Shown here: positions 6,001-18,780 of the stretch, in pieces
Numbering within the stretch: position 1 is the stretch's first letter
Layout: each line of letters begins with the position of its first letter
IMG/VR virus record: IMGVR_UViG_3300027899_000072
Span: 1 to 23,057 of that record
Strand: one strand, 5' to 3'
DNA: 23,057 nucleotides
DNA from: a virus
The notes under the pieces: generated by a model
The model's database searches: none
Seen by the model: only the letters and a program-made list of their open reading frames with translations
What the model was told of the DNA's origin: nothing
Position numbers and translations under genes: made by a program

Positions 6001-6181
6001 TGATCTTGCAACACGTGATAAATCAGCTTATTATAAACGTGATTCCGGTCCGTATCTATGGCAACGTGAAGGTGGTATAAAAGTATTTAGATACGGAGCT
6101 ACAGCATTAGGACTTACAGGAAGTACATTAGATCCTATAATGGGTATAAAAACTCAGTATTCAATAAAGTCTATAGAATAA
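62..6181 (+). CDS. Giant virion-type protein with N-terminal zincin metallopeptidase motif
   Basis: This encodes 2039 residues, by far the longest gene here. An AAAGGA at 52-57 lies 4 nt before the first ATG and 7 nt before the second (65), so either could be used; an in-frame stop at 11-13 excludes a longer form. The N-terminal region carries HEFSH (residues 144-148), a zincin HExxH motif, with E205 a possible third zinc ligand. The middle is long, charged and helical, with coiled-coil-like stretches (for example about 940-1020). Near the C-terminus is one hydrophobic segment (about 1868-1888) followed by six aspartates (1889-1894). I found no cysteine in the whole protein. crAss-like phages carry giant proteins in their late block that are packaged and ejected with the DNA; this one fits by size, strand and composition. 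A peptidase role is inferred from the motif only. Confidence 0.75.
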   Translation: MMYNEFRNPDEVYNTFKEELFGTYDPAKEYEASELGLYREDVDYQKITEDEDLIAIQELMFPGLRNKNLYSLFDIQGNDNVKALGELEQLANRLTEQLNVPYEFLTDEEAKELLGDKYLAQKSFFYNGVVYFNKDQFTTATLFHEFSHALVEALSVYNPELFNKLVNQALASTIQLDNGQMTTVEQMVIEEYPELDKDSMSFKKEVLTWSLGKAAELVNTDKKGSLLEWLKEFMYQVKQLLRNIFGSKIDISKLNVNTTIDDLAKSLAKGDYFIIAAEDITNKEIQEFREENRKVIKNINEKFDNEKLVVNIKELSSRVNKFVDRLALPGYNIPGVSRTTIKDLFTTINGKSLFEEVQSKLGATGKKLQGTLNEIKQMERSEEITDVINDLEKRLTESINDDTNPISIYEDIIGFLKGRDVLTDDQANKYIDLIREADQEVKIEIESKFANFKADYNFFVNQATNLVETIEVLDTALDNMIEDLNDTLNNIDDKNLLKRAHTQNDIINYWLDYIQGMKKDIESGEYTNGLIPNDLVSFLSLVESKLKSAKNITNKIYKKSTTALVVEQLESLDEYIREYYDNLIQKLEDKKMPEWLIQRTKDKYKQSSIRNFNTDTGQFESLEKSIEMYLEGKLGDSHALNGFLEGYMYNQDPIVMSVAKFIKDNYNRTVAEAQSRMEAWWNDISPLAKKLGYNPSNPQEFTNKVAFQDEISYYDTDIKEGPKYVIKKVWRLLNPNKNWESILFQKREDLKKLEATYNDTLSVEDEAAFMEAADEFEKWQRKYFYQPFKDEFYKFKSDFFSDAIGKIANNKLKYYQDRINESKAIGDTALAEKYRKLSNQLYSLTDTNGNTKKGDAYDIAQKLIEYREQSKKFYTKSIRTKAFNRNFYQKKQEIRDWVTKTYKDKAQQDIEFNKRWNEFLLTETTVVLNTEYWESIRNINERIKLLNAEIRAIDKANEEYYAQWDELTKERDKLLLGKKDSSRQYDPSQFTEDEVKRLEEINNEIDRLDKEVKVRESGLTQAEWDRYQIGINKDQYTIEELKEAFDIPADFPEMSVDTRVEVEVRELRDKAKRQRLDTTLFDDLKSAKEEKRNLQKAVASDYYIDNFNDQLNLLRQRNPQVVIDYFNGFNLSNYDISSLASVDDSYLSKARIEPLLEDAEFKEWFDKTHKIGYKGDYQRMYLYNKFLPKDITYYESYTAKNPEDVTDQEEIIVNGIPRVPNENYVYRTVKDEYRNKEIIGVTTTNKGQWLPKNREDMRDYYDKYKDDFEGGEDPYQFINEKYYEVIDSGNTDLIDVIEKLKWQALDLQNGVSKYGRLYLDLPRFYSSKLEILRNKKMSAKDNPISRLVKRVREFLLSTKKIYSEGLNNFEEQARLVNLDMMDDEISGVKIAGSDFIDIEDVNTDIVNNYMRYMLSAIRQKNLIQMYPDVMAVKQSLINVDGTPVGVDDRQKIDKKSWIENRIRPLSSLRFLKKKNENNRLNAINNLIEREFQGISQKGIGSKENVRLNKLSQLIFGRASFGFFAFNVPSAIKNYLGQKWQYSLHAIGGGDYDLKDMASGQALAFKTATEVTLKMYGDKEKSVHLDLADIMDAAQGRVDKNFGRRFSRSFVKDVAELANPMKAGISYNTREWLQLLGQYEVFFSALEGVKLNQLDADGNATTISYTDAWEKRSVTSLVYNRDGSTEEVERTETVLKDGIDPEYDRRPRIVTFSKTTSLEEYANKFGITQEELERRISKYNNGKTFSQFKDGEDMKVADMKKFNTFVNRQHDLQNKLGGAYAPWEQPEAQRFLLFRLVSYLRRYFTRMFMYRFQYKGHIWKSSERFNIGAERLEMGWYIKAMNDMLTIILTKGKYLSVMSTKDKLSMMRVLTEFVALTSLTMLLPLVFGFDDDDDDKYDKLREKSGHLPFLFAPGDEDHPFNMFGWLSNHALLMTLQVRRENEAFIPLPGYGLEDYKDLANLSSIAYGPTIETYVKMAGSIFDLATRDKSAYYKRDSGPYLWQREGGIKVFRYGATALGLTGSTLDPIMGIKTQYSIKSIE

Positions 6182-6220
6182 AAAAAATAGAGGGGAATAA
6201 TCCCCTCTTTCTTTTTTTTC
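6182..6220. terminator. Bidirectional intrinsic terminator between converging gene blocks
   Basis: A perfect 7-bp stem (AGAGGGG at 6189-6195 with CCCCTCT at 6202-6208) encloses a 6-nt AATAAT loop. A T-rich run follows on the plus strand (TTTCTTTTTTTT) and an A-run precedes it (6181-6187), giving a U-tract for leftward transcripts as well. It sits just after the giant gene's stop codon and 41 bp from the end of the leftward dNMP kinase gene, so it can terminate both converging units. Confidence 0.9.
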
Positions 6221-6227
6221 TTATTGT

Positions 6228-6243
6228 TAACCTAACTAGGTTA
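6228..6243. repeat. Short inverted repeat beside the terminator
   Basis: TAACCT and AGGTTA form a 6-bp stem around an AACT loop in the convergent intergenic gap, immediately after the last leftward gene. There is no clear U-tract next to it. It may be an accessory transcript-end structure; nothing else supports a function. Confidence 0.4.
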
Positions 6244-6248
6244 TTCAG

Positions 6249-6881
6249 TTATATCAGTTCTCGAGATTTTAAATACTCGTTTAAGGAAATTTCCAAATGA
6301 CCTGTCGGACCGTTATTATCAATAACAGCATCAAATTCATAATTATCTAAAGCCGTTTCAGATTCATGATTAAAATTATCTAATATACTTTTAGTTAATT
6401 CAGGATATCTATCTTCAAGAGGTCTATCCACACGTATAATAATGCCACCTAAAGATTTAATAGCATCCGCCTCATTAGGAAAACGAAGATCTGTAATAAT
6501 CCAATTACTTCCAGCATGATAATTTACAAATAACGCATTAATCCAAGTATCATCATGTAAGTTATTTCTTATAGCATCAGTACCAAGTCTTTGTAAAAAC
6601 TCTCTATAAGTATACTTTTTTCTATCATCATCTTCAGCTCGTTTACGTAAAAAACCATCCTGGATATAGTCCCATTCTACTTCCATCTCAGAATCTTTAA
6701 ATTCCTGATCCTCAAAGTAATGAACAGGAAAACCTGTTAAAACAGCTGATATTATCTTCAGTTTATCACTGAATCGTTTAATTTCCCAAAGTTCACTGGA
6801 TTTTGTATGGATTAATCTTTGGATAATTTTACCAACTGTATCCTTACCAGATTTTGATTTACCGCTTATTCCTATTATCAT
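6249..6881 (-). CDS. Deoxynucleoside monophosphate kinase
   Basis: This is a 210-residue P-loop kinase predicted to phosphorylate dNMPs to dNDPs for phage DNA synthesis, like phage T4 gp1. The P-loop GKSKSGKDT is at residues 7-15, right after the first beta strand, and has the GKD(T/S) ending typical of the family. TDLRFPNEADAI in the second half matches the family's conserved region before a strand leading to IIRVDRP. The length is close to that of T4 gp1. The ATG overlaps the stop of the preceding gene as ATGA, implying translational coupling. It is the last gene of the leftward block before the terminator. Confidence 0.85.
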   Translation of the reverse strand: MIIGISGKSKSGKDTVGKIIQRLIHTKSSELWEIKRFSDKLKIISAVLTGFPVHYFEDQEFKDSEMEVEWDYIQDGFLRKRAEDDDRKKYTYREFLQRLGTDAIRNNLHDDTWINALFVNYHAGSNWIITDLRFPNEADAIKSLGGIIIRVDRPLEDRYPELTKSILDNFNHESETALDNYEFDAVIDNNGPTGHLEISLNEYLKSRELI

Positions 6882-13457: not shown

Positions 13458-14633
13458 TTATTTAATTGCTATTTGTACAAGTTTCGGGTGCATTAGTAGC
13501 TTTTGAAATCGTTGTTTATCATAATTAACAATAGATTTAATAATGAAATACCTAAGATCATTAGTAAATAAATCCTCGTCAATACATATATTAATTAATC
13601 TATCAATTAGCTTTTGATCACAACCTACATTCTCAACATGATAATATGTATAATTAATAATCCTGGTAGCGATTACACCAGCTATATCCGCTCGATAATC
13701 ATTATCTTTACCGATAGTATCTACTAGTTTCTTTTGAGTAACATCCCAGTCTTTACTAGTAAGGATTTCTTTAGGATGAATTAATTTATCAAGTTTATTA
13801 TTGATAAACATAGTAAAAATAGTGCTAAAATCCGGTCCTACAGATCCTTCACCTAACATCTGGATAAGCGGTAATTCTTTATCAAAGTCTTTAACAGAAC
13901 TAATAGAGTTAAAGAATGTAGTAATAACCCTAGCATTAGTTTGTTCTGTTACTAGCTCAGGGTGCATAATTAGAAAATTAATACAACGGTTATCTAATTG
14001 ACAATTCTCTGCATATCTAGCCCAACAATCAATATCAAATTGTAGATTAATAGTTATAAATCTAGTCTTCTGAGCATTATCCATACTTGTAACAAAATAC
14101 TCACCATTATCAGGATTTGAGCTTAGTAATATCATAGATCCTTTAGGAAGTTTCCATGAGATATACTCTTGCCTGTCAATGATTTCCATACAAGCTTGAA
14201 GAAATCTGGAATCAGCTCTTGAATAATCATCAAGTAATAACATTAAAGGTTTTTCCTTACCTTGAATCCAAGCTGGAGGAGCATACGTCATACGCTTTTG
14301 ACCAGTTGGGTTATATTGACCTTGTATATAGGTAGGTAATAAATTTTCTGGTACCCATTTAACTGTATCACCTTTCTTTACTTCAAATTCTTTAACTGGA
14401 AATCCGGTTAAATCACCTATTTCTTCTATCTGACTAAGACATAATTTTTCAAAATCCATATTAAGCTCCTGAGCTATCTGGGTAATTACACTCGTCTTAC
14501 CAATACCCGCTGGTGATTCTACATTAATAGCTACCGGATTTTTACCTTGTTCTTGTATATGTTGATTATTACTAACCATATACTTTATAAGAGTTTTTAA
14601 CTCATCTACATTTAATTTTACATTTGCACTCAT
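13458..14633 (-). CDS. MoxR-type AAA+ ATPase
   Basis: This is a 391-residue AAA+ ATPase. Walker A is ESPAGIGKTS (39-48, K46, T47), Walker B is LLLDD (132-136), and sensor 1 is SSN (171-173) followed by a likely arginine finger region near R191. MoxR-type ATPases commonly act with VWA-domain proteins encoded next door as chaperone or metal-insertion machines. Here the partner is the metallopeptidase-VWA protein directly upstream; the two genes overlap by 4 nt (ATGA). The substrate is unknown. Confidence 0.88.
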   Translation of the reverse strand: MSANVKLNVDELKTLIKYMVSNNQHIQEQGKNPVAINVESPAGIGKTSVITQIAQELNMDFEKLCLSQIEEIGDLTGFPVKEFEVKKGDTVKWVPENLLPTYIQGQYNPTGQKRMTYAPPAWIQGKEKPLMLLLDDYSRADSRFLQACMEIIDRQEYISWKLPKGSMILLSSNPDNGEYFVTSMDNAQKTRFITINLQFDIDCWARYAENCQLDNRCINFLIMHPELVTEQTNARVITTFFNSISSVKDFDKELPLIQMLGEGSVGPDFSTIFTMFINNKLDKLIHPKEILTSKDWDVTQKKLVDTIGKDNDYRADIAGVIATRIINYTYYHVENVGCDQKLIDRLINICIDEDLFTNDLRYFIIKSIVNYDKQRFQKLLMHPKLVQIAIK

Positions 14634-15613
14634 AATTGTAATTTAATTTTATAACCTTGTAATTCTTCGTTAATATTACTGTTGGAACTATGTACCCATA
14701 AAGTACGAATTTGACATTTAGGCGGTGCGGGTGCTTCACCATCTGTAAATACGATAAGACCAGTATATACTGAGGTATGATTATTAGTATACTCTATTAT
14801 AGGTTTGAAATCTGTACCACCACGACCATGTATTTCAATTTTATCACTTGGTTTAAACGGTATAACTGATCGTACATCTGTATCACATTGTAATATAGTT
14901 ACATCACTACCGGTCTTATATATGTGGTGAATCTCATTCATAAACTCTTTAAGTTCACCATCACTAACAGATCCAGATGTATCTATAGCAACTAATAAAT
15001 GTCGCCTTTTCTTAATCTTAAGACCAGCATCTTCTACAAACCTCTTGTTCTCTTTACGCTGCATCTTCTTGGTATAGACTTTACTAGATCCACCAGCAAA
15101 TCTTCTAACATAACTTTTCCAGTCAAACTTAGGCGGTTCTACTTTAAATAAATCGTCTATATAACTTTGTAATTCACCAGGTATAGTACCTCTATTCTTA
15201 ATACTATTAGCTATTTCTTTTAAGTGATGATCTATTTGAGAACCTAGTAATTTCTTTTCAGTATCACTTAAGTTATCAAATTCTTCCCAATCATGATTAG
15301 GAACCATATCACCATCACCATCGTGAATATCACCATTAGTTATAGCTTCCATGACCATTTTTATCTTAGGACTATTATTAGCAGCTTGTTGAAGCTTATC
15401 ATAATAATAACGAGTACCTTTCTTAGGTTCAAGATTAAGATCCGCAAATGTTTCAAGTGTCATACCTCCAGGTGGAAGATACTGTTTATCAATGAATTGA
15501 TTAATTTCTAAATCCATAGCAATATTAGCTATCATCTGATTTTCAAATTCATCATGCCTAAGTAAATGAAAAATACTATATGGTAAACGTATTATTAACT
15601 CATACTTTCGCAT
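14630..15613 (-). CDS. Metallopeptidase-VWA protein, 3' exon (DUF2201-like)
   Basis: This open frame is the second part of a split gene. Residues (frame numbering) 205-292 form a VWA domain with a complete MIDAS: DTSGS (211-215), GGTDF (265-269) and TDG (290-292). Residues about 14-40 (FHLLRH to NIAMDLEINQ) match the region just after the HE motif in DUF2201-type predicted metallopeptidases, so the protein's front half is missing and lies at 16703-16926. The ATG at 15611-15613 lies in the P9 hairpin of the intron, so it is probably not a real start. Best-guess exon 2 begins near 15575; joined to exon 1 ending at 16703 it gives an in-frame 389-residue protein. It partners the overlapping MoxR ATPase. 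Confidence 0.85.
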   Translation of the reverse strand: MRKYELIIRLPYSIFHLLRHDEFENQMIANIAMDLEINQFIDKQYLPPGGMTLETFADLNLEPKKGTRYYYDKLQQAANNSPKIKMVMEAITNGDIHDGDGDMVPNHDWEEFDNLSDTEKKLLGSQIDHHLKEIANSIKNRGTIPGELQSYIDDLFKVEPPKFDWKSYVRRFAGGSSKVYTKKMQRKENKRFVEDAGLKIKKRRHLLVAIDTSGSVSDGELKEFMNEIHHIYKTGSDVTILQCDTDVRSVIPFKPSDKIEIHGRGGTDFKPIIEYTNNHTSVYTGLIVFTDGEAPAPPKCQIRTLWVHSSNSNINEELQGYKIKLQL

Positions 15614-16702
15614 GAGACTAGACTATACCTTAATCCTAAAGCCTTTTTGCTTAGGATTGCTTATTGTAGTCGTTGAACCTCTTTCTTGGTTTATATGTGT
15701 CTAAGTAATTAATAAAAACTTGCCTTTTCCTTTCTAAACATGTAGTATAATCTTTGTACATGTATTCAAATAGATTAAGTGTATCATGCAAAGAATGTTG
15801 TGTAATATAACACTCATTACTTTTCTTAATAGTTTTATTTTTTACTGGTAATATTTTTAATAAATCAATAATAAATTTTTGTGAACCTGAACAAAAACCT
15901 GATTTTAAGATTTTCCAATCATTATTTTTTAGATTTTTATAAACACCAACTGTACCATCTCCATCAAAATATCCTCTTATAAAATGATGAACTAATTCAT
16001 CTTCTAATATAGGTATTCTTATTGTTTTAGTTTTAGCAGGTGTACATCCTAAATTATTTAAATCATTATACATTTGAGCTGATGTTATTTGAGCTTTCCA
16101 TATATACTTTTTATATAATTTTTGATATTCACAATTTGGAGAATTATTTGATCCAACATCTGATAAAAATAGTTTTACCCATTCTTTGTCTTTTGATGAA
16201 AAAATAATTTGTCCAGATTTAGTTGCTTTTTTTGTAATATTACCATCAGCAAACAATACTCCTAACCAATATGCTTTTTTTTCTGTGTTTATAACATTAA
16301 AAAAGTCATCTTGACAAGTGTATTTCATTGCTGATTCAGACAAAGTTCTTGATTTTATATTATTTCTTTTTAAAATTGCAAATACAGTTTTCACATTTAT
16401 TTCTAATGTACTTGCAATCTTTTTACCTGATAAATTATCAGTAATATAATAATCAATTACTTTTTGTTCTATTTCTGTTTTCATATATGTAAGTATTTAT
16501 ACTACAATATACCAAAAATAAACCATATAACCAAGAAATTTGGCTGCGGATTTACCAATTCTTATCTTTTTTACCATACCTGAGTAATTACTTCAGCCAC
16601 TATATCAATCACTTGTATAGTTTGGTAGATAAGACTCTAAAGGTAGTCCCCGTCAATTTAAAGCTTTTTACATGTAGATTACTCTACAAGGAACCCAATT
16701 TA
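15576..16702 (-). ncRNA. Group I self-splicing intron with endonuclease ORF in P6
   Basis: In leftward RNA the core elements are: P (16642-16659, AAUUGACGGGGAC), Q (16538-16553, AAAUCCGCAGCCAAAU), R (15659-15678, GUUCAACGACUAC) and S (15621-15631, AAGGUAUAGUC). GACUA of R pairs with UAGUC of S to form P7. P2 is a hairpin at 16673-16688 with a GUAA loop. P5 pairs 16627-16634 with 16560-16567. P6 pairs 16524-16538 with 15682-15697 (15 bp, one bulged A). P8 is at 15633-15657. P9 is at 15599-15616 with a GAAA loop. P1 is best formed by exon GAGCUU against GGGUUC (16691-16696), ending in U-G. Exact ends are uncertain: the 5' site is 16702/16703 or one base later, and the 3' site is at 15576, 15588 or 15599. 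Only the first choice gives reasonable P10 pairing. Confidence 0.9.
15651..16484 (-). CDS. LAGLIDADG homing endonuclease inside the intron
   Basis: This is a 277-residue single-chain endonuclease with two LAGLIDADG motifs: AYWLGVLFADG (71-81) and HHFIRGYFDGDG (166-177), both ending in the acidic residue that binds metal. An N-terminal helix-turn-helix (about 10-45, GKKIASTLEINVKTVFAILK) resembles those that help homing enzymes bind DNA. The gene lies in the P6 loop of the group I intron, and its product would spread the intron to intronless copies of the metallopeptidase-VWA gene. Its last ~15 codons (YKPRKRFNDYNKQS) also encode the P6 3' strand, R and P3' regions, and the stop TAA lies in the P8 stem. 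It appears intact, suggesting recent activity. Confidence 0.92.
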   Translation of the reverse strand: MKTEIEQKVIDYYITDNLSGKKIASTLEINVKTVFAILKRNNIKSRTLSESAMKYTCQDDFFNVINTEKKAYWLGVLFADGNITKKATKSGQIIFSSKDKEWVKLFLSDVGSNNSPNCEYQKLYKKYIWKAQITSAQMYNDLNNLGCTPAKTKTIRIPILEDELVHHFIRGYFDGDGTVGVYKNLKNNDWKILKSGFCSGSQKFIIDLLKILPVKNKTIKKSNECYITQHSLHDTLNLFEYMYKDYTTCLERKRQVFINYLDTYKPRKRFNDYNKQS

Positions 16703-16926
16703 AGCTCATGATGTAATAAGCCTATCCTATGATTAGGTTCTAAATTAGACCAGAATTCTTCATTTACATCTAGTTTATAGTTAATTCCTTGTTTACTTAC
16801 TCCTGCTGTAGGAACCTTTTTACTTACCTTTTTATCTAGGAGTAACATATACATCCCATAGAAAGGTTGTTTTAGCATAAGGTCCTTACCAGTTTTAGAT
16901 ATTTCATTTAATACTTTTTGACTCAT
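16684..16926 (-). CDS. Metallopeptidase-VWA protein, 5' exon
   Basis: This open frame of 80 residues is the first part of the split gene. PFYGMYMLLLDKKV, TAGVSKQGINYKLDVNEEFWSNL and GLLHHEL match the start of DUF2201-type predicted metallopeptidases up to the HE of the metal-binding helix. Coding homology ends at HHEL (about 16702). The remaining residues KLGSL and the TAG stop (16684-16686) are intron sequence. After splicing the frame continues into 15575 or nearby. The ATG at 16924-16926 lies inside the preceding gene's end (23-nt overlap). Without splicing the product would be an 80-residue fragment. Confidence 0.85.
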   Translation of the reverse strand: MSQKVLNEISKTGKDLMLKQPFYGMYMLLLDKKVSKKVPTAGVSKQGINYKLDVNEEFWSNLEPNHRIGLLHHELKLGSL

Positions 16927-18018: not shown

Positions 18019-18359
18019 TATAATTTATTTTCTATTGTTCCTGAATGTTCATATGATTCTATATCATAAACACGTATATTATTTGAAATTGAATATTCTA
18101 AGGTATCAAGATCAAGATGTATTTCTCCATAACCTCCATCATTATTATACCAATCTTCAATATTTTCTAATAAATTAGAATAACAGTAATCGCTAATAGC
18201 TTCTTTATCAATATTGTCTATTTCACTTATATATTCTTCATTACCTCCAGCATCTTCAGTTAGTATTTCGTCTATATCACCACTATCTCCACTACCAGAG
18301 TATCTGATTATTAATTTAATATAACCCGCGTCTTTTAATTTAGTTAGTTCTGAAATCAT
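18018..18359 (-). CDS. Acidic DUF6878-like small protein
   Basis: This encodes 113 residues, very acidic. IRYSGSGDSGDIDEI, then LENIEDWYNNDGGYGEIHLDLDTLEYSI and a C-terminal YEHSG match the pattern I recall for DUF6878-type proteins (GSGDSG followed by DWexNdGgyG). Acidic small phage proteins often bind host proteins or mimic DNA, but nothing here shows a target. Its start lies inside the 3' end of the GIY-YIG gene (20-nt overlap). Confidence 0.55.
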   Translation of the reverse strand: MISELTKLKDAGYIKLIIRYSGSGDSGDIDEILTEDAGGNEEYISEIDNIDKEAISDYCYSNLLENIEDWYNNDGGYGEIHLDLDTLEYSISNNIRVYDIESYEHSGTIENKL

Positions 18360-18780
18360 TTTTTTTTTGTTTATAAAATTTACCTAAAATATTAGAATTC
18401 AAGAAGTTATCTTTTTCGAGTACTTCATGTATAAATTGATATTTAGTTTCCATATACGATAATTCTAATTTAGAATAACAAATACATAGTATTTCTCTTT
18501 TAATTTTTACATCATCGTTATGAGCTTTTTTTAATACCTCGTTACTACTATAGTAGTTTTCATATGCTAGTTTCTTTACCCGTTTATAGGTCTTTTTACG
18601 TTTATCAGTAGGTAAATCTTTTTTAGCTAATTTAGATTTTCTATCGGAATAAAAGTTCTTTTTACCGATATATAACATAGAAGCACCATCTATTACAGCG
18701 CTCATAATATATACAAATCCAACACTATTTTCAGGTATCATTTCTGAAGTAAAGACAACTCCTTTATAAATCCAACTCAT
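18340..18780 (-). CDS. GIY-YIG nuclease of the SegE-like type
   Basis: This is a 146-residue putative free-standing nuclease. FVYIMSAVIDGASMLYIGKK (22-41) gives the VYI and YIG halves of a GIY-YIG site. NYYSSNEVLKKA and KREILCICYSKLELSYMETKY follow, with E111 placed as the catalytic glutamate and R95 as a possible active-site arginine. This order matches the SegE GIY-YIG group from T4-like phages. It is wedged between the primase (4-nt ATGA overlap) and the acidic small gene (20-nt overlap), tighter than most free-standing homing genes, so it may have been adopted for another job. Confidence 0.7.
   Translation of the reverse strand: MSWIYKGVVFTSEMIPENSVGFVYIMSAVIDGASMLYIGKKNFYSDRKSKLAKKDLPTDKRKKTYKRVKKLAYENYYSSNEVLKKAHNDDVKIKREILCICYSKLELSYMETKYQFIHEVLEKDNFLNSNILGKFYKQKKNDFRTN

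Follow-up and report, generated by a model that had tools for sequence, protein, structure and literature searches.

The 23,057-base stretch analyzed here (the window) is an IMG/VR virus record whose minus strand carries a metallopeptidase-VWA gene, and the gene is interrupted within the codons of its HExxH motif. The interruption is very probably a mobile self-splicing group I intron that encodes a LAGLIDADG homing endonuclease, as judged by comparison of the window with related phage loci, all of which are metagenome contigs. The intron boundaries, a conserved ribozyme structure, a reading frame that is restored in relatives, an intact endonuclease under selection and horizontal movement of the intron are directly evident from the sequence. 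The evidence for mobility combines two arguments in one system: one intron is shared by different hosts, and a single type of host contains different introns. The system provides a natural, replicated case of intron homing between deeply diverged phages.

Intron boundaries and the interrupted gene

The interrupted gene comprises the following parts.

16703..16926, minus strand: exon 1 of the metallopeptidase-VWA gene, codons 1-75, ending CATCATGAGCT; matches phrog_1314 profile positions 8-79 and aligns to the N-terminus of intronless homologues
15588..16702, minus strand: predicted group I intron of 1,115 nt, starting UAAAUUGGGUUCC and ending AAUACG (omega-G); defined by intronless homologues, 24 other carriers, an RF00028 match and covariation
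14630..15587, minus strand: exon 2, covering the remaining metallopeptidase domain and the VWA domain; DUF2201 VWA-like E 3e-20, phrog_1314 E 2.3e-47
15567..15583, minus strand: two compensating 1-nt indels relative to loci L002 and L030, changing HELLHIVFFH to HELLPYSIFH

The open reading frame (ORF) listing of this region contains minus-strand ORFs of 80 aa (16926-16684), 277 aa (16484-15651) and 327 aa (15613-14630). The 80-aa and 327-aa ORFs match consecutive stretches (positions 8-79 and 85-380) of a single profile, phrog_1314; gene callers split this one metallopeptidase-VWA gene. In an IMG/VR search with the exon 2 protein, from which the best 80 of 302 relatives were used, the gene is a single continuous ORF in 77 homologues, reading (K/Q/T)HELLHI..FH or near variants at the join, and the remaining three (L002, L030 and L055) have an intron at the HExxH position. 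A second search, with the endonuclease protein, yielded 24 loci, every one of which carries the metallopeptidase-VWA gene, and the insert interrupts the gene after codon 75 in each locus that includes exon 1. All carriers that reach far enough end exon 1 with CAYGARCT and have G as the last intron base. The joined exons give HELLHI followed by A, V or G in 24/24 checkable carriers besides the window (L016 and L024, which are cut by the contig end, were left out), and the window alone reads HELLPYS. These comparisons place the intron inside the HExxH codons and predict that the exons rejoin to a reading frame that is uninterrupted in relatives; in the window, the frame is kept and HExxH is altered.

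The altered motif results from an extra C at 15583 and a missing C near 15568, located 5-20 nt into exon 2. The indel pair preserves the frame and removes the second zinc-ligand His of HExxH. Locus L002 is otherwise 100% identical to the window over 4,627 bp and has an intact HExxH motif, which is absent from the window as assembled. Three origins are conceivable for the indel pair, namely an error of assembly or sequencing, an inactive variant that truly exists in the phage, or a scar that inexact repair left where the intron homed. Given the identity of the two loci bar these two 1-nt indels, L002 was used in place of the window for the mobility comparisons.

The original prediction of a gene split within its metal-binding helix at 14630-16926 is borne out by the intronless homologues and the carriers, and its coordinates stand, although the gene lies on the minus strand. 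Other details of that prediction are revised. The exon 1 frame does not stop right after HHEL but continues for five codons into the intron (KLGSL*), with the stop ending at 16684. The homology was expected to resume at IFHLLRHDEF; it does lie in exon 2, but the exon begins approximately four codons earlier. Exons 1 and 2 together span 1,182 nt and encode 393 aa plus a stop codon, rather than 389 residues.

The HExxH residues H71, E72 and H75 and the DTSxS and GRGGT motifs of the VWA metal ion-dependent adhesion site (MIDAS) are invariant among 32 homologues, and a relative (L031) matches DUF2201_N with an E value of 4e-19. VWA folds are the top Foldseek matches of the host protein, albeit weak ones (best E 1.1e-3), and a sequence search for solved structures matching this protein found none. 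The domain matches and invariant motifs identify the host protein as a DUF2201-type metallopeptidase/VWA protein, and the adjoining gene is predicted to encode an AAA ATPase. Both PHROGs and the RefSeq copies of phrog_1314 members (e.g. NC_031039.1 and NC_027381.1) call this family 'HNH endonuclease'. The GenBank originals of such records name a zincin/vWA protein or a metallopeptidase, and Pfam backs these names for the window's gene.

Ribozyme core and encoded endonuclease

The intron, together with the exon side of P1, comprises the following elements, which are listed in the order of transcription.

16703..16707, minus strand: P1 exon side GAGCU, with U at the 5' splice site; pairs with the internal guide sequence GGUUC and covaries (GAACU/GGUUC in L003, GAGCU/GGCUC in most)
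16691..16695, minus strand: P1 internal guide sequence GGUUC; pairs with the exon side
16673..16688, minus strand: P2 hairpin UGUAGA-GUAA-UCUACA; 4/6 pairs with change on both sides
16518..16668, minus strand: 5' half of the ribozyme core with the P3 5' strand, P4, P5 and its extensions, the Q element and the P6/P6a 5' strand; compensatory pairs P3 4/4, P5b 5/5
15651..16484, minus strand: gene for a 277-aa LAGLIDADG homing endonuclease, located within the loop of P6a; LAGLIDADG_3 E 1.3e-7, phrog_4645 E 1.5e-51
15667..15679, minus strand: R element GGUUCAACGACUA, the P7 5' strand; covariance-model match and alignment
15632..15658, minus strand: P8 hairpin; double-sided change in 4 of 6 counted pairs
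15621..15631, minus strand: S element AAGGUAUAGUC, the P7 3' strand; covariance-model match and alignment
15599..15616, minus strand: P9 hairpin CUCAUG-CGAAAG-UAUGAG; double-sided change in 4/6 pairs

The RNA structure was evaluated on an alignment of 18 introns (16 from the HExxH site and one from each of two further sites), from which the endonuclease gene had been removed. Across 13 helices, standard pairs occupy 1,179/1,206 cells, and double-sided changes occur at 37/67 pairs. Neither figure was equalled in any of 500 shuffles, a count that is not a probability because the aligned introns are related. In a control that preserves this relatedness, sliding one partner by 1-3 columns reduces the standard pairs to 385-511. 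The P3 pseudoknot, counted separately, exhibits 72/72 standard pairs, with double-sided changes at all four pairs. RNAalifold recovers P1, P2 and P4-P9 when no structure is supplied. Furthermore, the U.G pair at the 5' splice site is present in 18/18 core sequences, and the terminal intron G is found in all carriers. The core helices P3-P8 and the P, Q, R and S elements are all present, which identifies the insert as a group I intron by comparative structure. The prediction that such an intron lies here, with P, Q, R, S, P2, P8 and P9, is upheld by the covariation and by the Rfam model RF00028, and P1, P3, P5 and P6/P6a are added to the list.

The P7.1/P7.2 helices are a hallmark of IA introns, which are typical of phages. 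In the window, the gap from the P7 5' strand to the P3 3' strand is approximately 4 nt as judged by eye from the alignment, with no room for P7.1/P7.2. The intron may be IB-like, since this gap, read by eye, argues against IA.

The LAGLIDADG gene proposed from the initial reading matches LAGLIDADG_3 and phrog_4645, and the last codons at its 3' end overlap R, the P3 3' strand and P8. Its product contains two motifs in one chain (LGVLFADG and IRGYFDGDG), whose residues A79-D80-G81 and D174-G175-D176-G177 are invariant among 31 relatives. The AlphaFold2 model of the protein (predicted local distance difference test score, 89) has 84 PDB matches at E <= 0.001. The top-ranked matches are LAGLIDADG endonucleases, maturases and intein-borne endonucleases, and the matches include I-Tsp061I, I-SceI, I-AniI and the bI3 maturase. 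The nonsynonymous-to-synonymous ratio (dN/dS) of 0.15-0.32 between L002 and its relatives in the window's clade indicates that the endonuclease is under purifying selection. The model and motifs thus describe an intact two-motif LAGLIDADG endonuclease with the LAGLIDADG fold.

Intron histories and insertion sites

Does the intron share the history of the gene in which it resides? When L002 is compared with 13 distant phages that carry its intron type, the identity of the host proteins is 48-54%, and the synonymous divergence (pS) of the exons is 0.64-0.78, which is near saturation. In the same comparisons, the introns are 87-91% identical, and the endonuclease pS is only 0.11-0.30. The intron closest to that of L002 belongs to L003 (93.5% identity, endonuclease pS 0.09), whose host gene was left unscored because its exon 2 is itself interrupted. 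The converse relationship is observed between L002 and L030, whose exons differ at 2/1,182 bases, whereas their introns, inserted at the same nucleotide, are 63% identical and their endonucleases 40%. Of the two differing exon bases, one opens exon 2, adjoining the splice site, and fits what co-conversion would leave. In addition, the host exons pair L002 with L030, whereas the endonuclease tree groups L002 with L003, L004 and L005 (99/97) and places L030 outside the other site-A enzymes (site A being the HExxH position). Inheritance with the host gene cannot yield such a discordance, which argues for horizontal transfer and marks the intron as mobile. The internal guide may also retain a trace of the donor. 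The L003 exon sequence GAACT pairs perfectly with the guide GGUUC. The window's intron has this guide as well, and its pairing with the window's own GAGCT exon includes one wobble. This fit suggests that the window's intron came from a donor whose exon, like that of L003, reads GAACT.

The metallopeptidase-VWA gene is a recurrent target. Among the relatives of the L030 endonuclease, 67/80 loci lie in this gene, at three positions: site A within the HExxH codons (HEL|LH, codon 75), site B directly behind the invariant Asp in NIAMD|xEINQ (codon 100) and site C immediately ahead of the Thr in the MIDAS motif GRGG|T (codon 332). Further introns occupy sites B or C of the same gene in L003, L012, L143 and L146-L174, and some phages contain two introns (A and B in L003 and L151; A and C in L012 and L143; B and C in L153). 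In a tree of 58 endonucleases, the site-B and site-C enzymes each form one clade (100/99 and 100/97, respectively), and the site-A enzymes form one clade except for L133. Four changes of site label suffice on this tree, compared to a mean of 28 for shuffled labels; therefore, endonuclease lineage is tied to target site. The site-specific clades lend indirect support to cleavage of the intronless allele. At L133:2500-4200, a site-A-type endonuclease and intron reside in another gene, which has the GGCATGAGCT target core in common with the metallopeptidase-VWA gene; this intron is likely to be an ectopic jump.

All three sites lie among invariant residues; the motif struck is in each case metal-binding or otherwise invariant, and every site has an endonuclease lineage of its own. 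Group I introns are reported to prefer conserved positions (PMC2814812), and the three-site pattern agrees with this preference. By nucleotide conservation among 22-bp windows, site A ranks in the top 3.7%, site B in the top 16.7% and site C in the top 21.5%. This ranking is biased toward peaks such as PPKFDWK, since the homologues were retrieved by fixed peptide patterns. The sites are conserved, yet they are not the most conserved DNA. The rationale that insertion targets the most conserved DNA thus holds for site A as to high rank but not as to the maximum.

A further proposal, about as likely as not, is that the active-site codons of this gene are an object of competition in wild crAss-like phages. 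Distinct intron-endonuclease lineages, each specific for a single one of the three active-site positions, would time and again enter the gene and oust one another from the same nucleotide. Two near-identical phages, the window and L002 on one side and L030 on the other, would have been caught with different introns, and the guide in the window would still fit the GAACT exon of its donor. The system opens intron replacement, target choice and intron-based phage competition to direct testing.

Alternative readings, genomic setting and known systems

How would the intron operate? The transcribed RNA would fold as P1-P9 and then excise itself, with the GAGCU exon end held by the GGUUC guide and cut behind its U at the 5' splice site, and with the 3' splice site behind the terminal G, and the two exons would rejoin into a single metallopeptidase-VWA reading frame. 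Separately from splicing, the intron-made LAGLIDADG enzyme would cut the HExxH codons of intronless gene copies that co-infecting phages carry, and the intron would be copied in when the cut gene is repaired. We infer splicing in the cell, enzymatic cutting of the HExxH site and the double-strand-break repair route from the comparisons above.

Several observations weigh against a functional mobile intron in the window. Splicing and cleavage are here predictions from sequence comparison. The RF00028 match at 15599-15777 on the minus strand (29.7 bits, E 2.6e-5, in a region-restricted search) falls below the 50-bit gathering score, and a whole-window Rfam search returned no group I match. The endonuclease gene divides the core, which accounts for the low score and for a match that appears solely when the search is confined to a small region. 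A match was nonetheless obtained with the Rfam group I model, contrary to the absence of a match that would have spoken against the prediction. At the gathering score, Rfam found a sole match in 13 related loci, an endonuclease-less intron located elsewhere in L119, and Rfam at this score misses the present introns since the endonuclease breaks their core. The L119 intron (RF00028, 77.7 bits at 6033-6268) lies in a gap at L119:5270-6322 that splits the neighboring AAA ATPase gene. The window's P1 also contains a G.U wobble in addition to the splice-site U.G pair, and P10 looks weak, so splicing in the window's phage could be inefficient. Finally, HExxH is scrambled in the window's own exon 2. 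An alternative reading is a decaying intron, in which the ribozyme or endonuclease is inactive in the window's phage and the host gene is effectively broken. Such decay would account for the P1 wobble, the loss of the second His through the two indels and the lack of an intact endonuclease ORF in the relatives L139, L142 and L162. However, the window retains every core pair and an intact endonuclease ORF on which purifying selection acts, and L002 contains the same intron with an intact HExxH. We consider decay improbable.

Chimeric assembly could be invoked for the intron difference between L002 and L030, or for intron sharing among distant phages, given that metagenome contigs are the only material and that two indels already separate the window from L002. 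However, the exchange points coincide with splice sites, and the window-type endonuclease is found in 24 loci on separate contigs and the L055-type in five; each case has multi-locus support except L030, which rests on a single contig. The splice-site exchange points and the many separate contigs led us to reject chimerism, which we regard as very unlikely. Naive ORF calling yields 80-aa and 327-aa ORFs on either side of the endonuclease, as if two distinct genes flanked a free-standing endonuclease gene. This arrangement is contradicted by the single ORF in 77/77 intronless homologues, which leaves no two-gene pattern in relatives, by the restored frame in carriers and by the covarying group I core, which extends through the intervening DNA to both exon borders; it was rejected as highly improbable. 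An intein would likewise explain the LAGLIDADG enzyme, as such endonucleases occur in inteins, which are among the fold matches. However, the exon 1 frame stops five codons into the insert, the endonuclease ORF is delimited by separate start and stop codons, and the covarying RNA structure takes in exon bases through P1. The intein was rejected on the stop codons between exon and endonuclease, and its probability is negligible.

The window's phage is taken as crAss-like, an assignment supported by gene content. In line with the crAss-like label given initially, its AAA_24/ATP_43b-type gene matches 37 phage records, among those listed mostly uncultured crAss-like phages, and Cellulophaga phage phi14:2 is among the matches of its DNA polymerase. 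The terminase family PF03237, sought in seven long relatives, was not found and gave no placement aid, and the 2,039-aa ORF of the window was of no use for placement. Elsewhere in the window, a 39-nt inverted repeat (95%, 12-nt loop) at the contig start (1-90) overlaps the start of the 2,039-aa ORF and looks like an assembly end artefact. A strong hairpin at 6182-6219 (AGAGGGGA-ATAA-TCCCCTCT), with A and T runs on either side, lies between convergent genes and is a probable bidirectional terminator. An apparently free-standing gene at 18340-18780 encodes a SegE-like GIY-YIG endonuclease.

The window's intron resembles several known systems. Introns of Herelleviridae and related phages (Staphylococcus, Bacillus and Enterococcus; nrdD, DNA polymerase and lysin regions) often contain an endonuclease ORF, and window positions 16540-16674 are approximately 70-79% identical in nucleotide sequence to intervening sequences from phages of Bacillus, Staphylococcus, Enterococcus and Vibrio. 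However, the host genes differ, and the nucleotide similarity was found for the 5' core only. CrAss-like phage introns (Yutin et al. 2021, PMC7886860) are likewise group I introns with endonucleases in core genes, and the main text of that study makes no mention of VWA, protease or zincin. A search of the open-access literature, outside which most subscription journals lie, found no published phage metallopeptidase-VWA gene that harbors a group I intron, and the open-access literature searched contains no report of three active-site positions in one gene with their own endonuclease lineages or of the two-way contrast between shared introns in diverged hosts and different introns in near-identical hosts. 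The closest solved-structure match to the window enzyme is the archaeal intron-encoded endonuclease I-Tsp061I (PDB 2dch). The two enzymes share approximately 20% identity, and, in contrast to its archaeal counterpart, the window enzyme has an extra N-terminal helical (helix-turn-helix-like) segment. The gp210 intron of phage PhiPA3, demonstrated experimentally by Birkholz et al. 2024 (PMC11620839), interrupts an RNA polymerase gene and encodes an HNH enzyme. Its endonuclease sits beside conserved Asp codons of an essential gene and acts on a related co-infecting phage, a setting comparable to the one proposed for the window, where a LAGLIDADG enzyme in a metallopeptidase gene is known from sequence. 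Compared to these systems, the element is a standard mobile group I intron, and its novelty lies in the host gene, the three favored active-site positions and the clarity of the mobility evidence.

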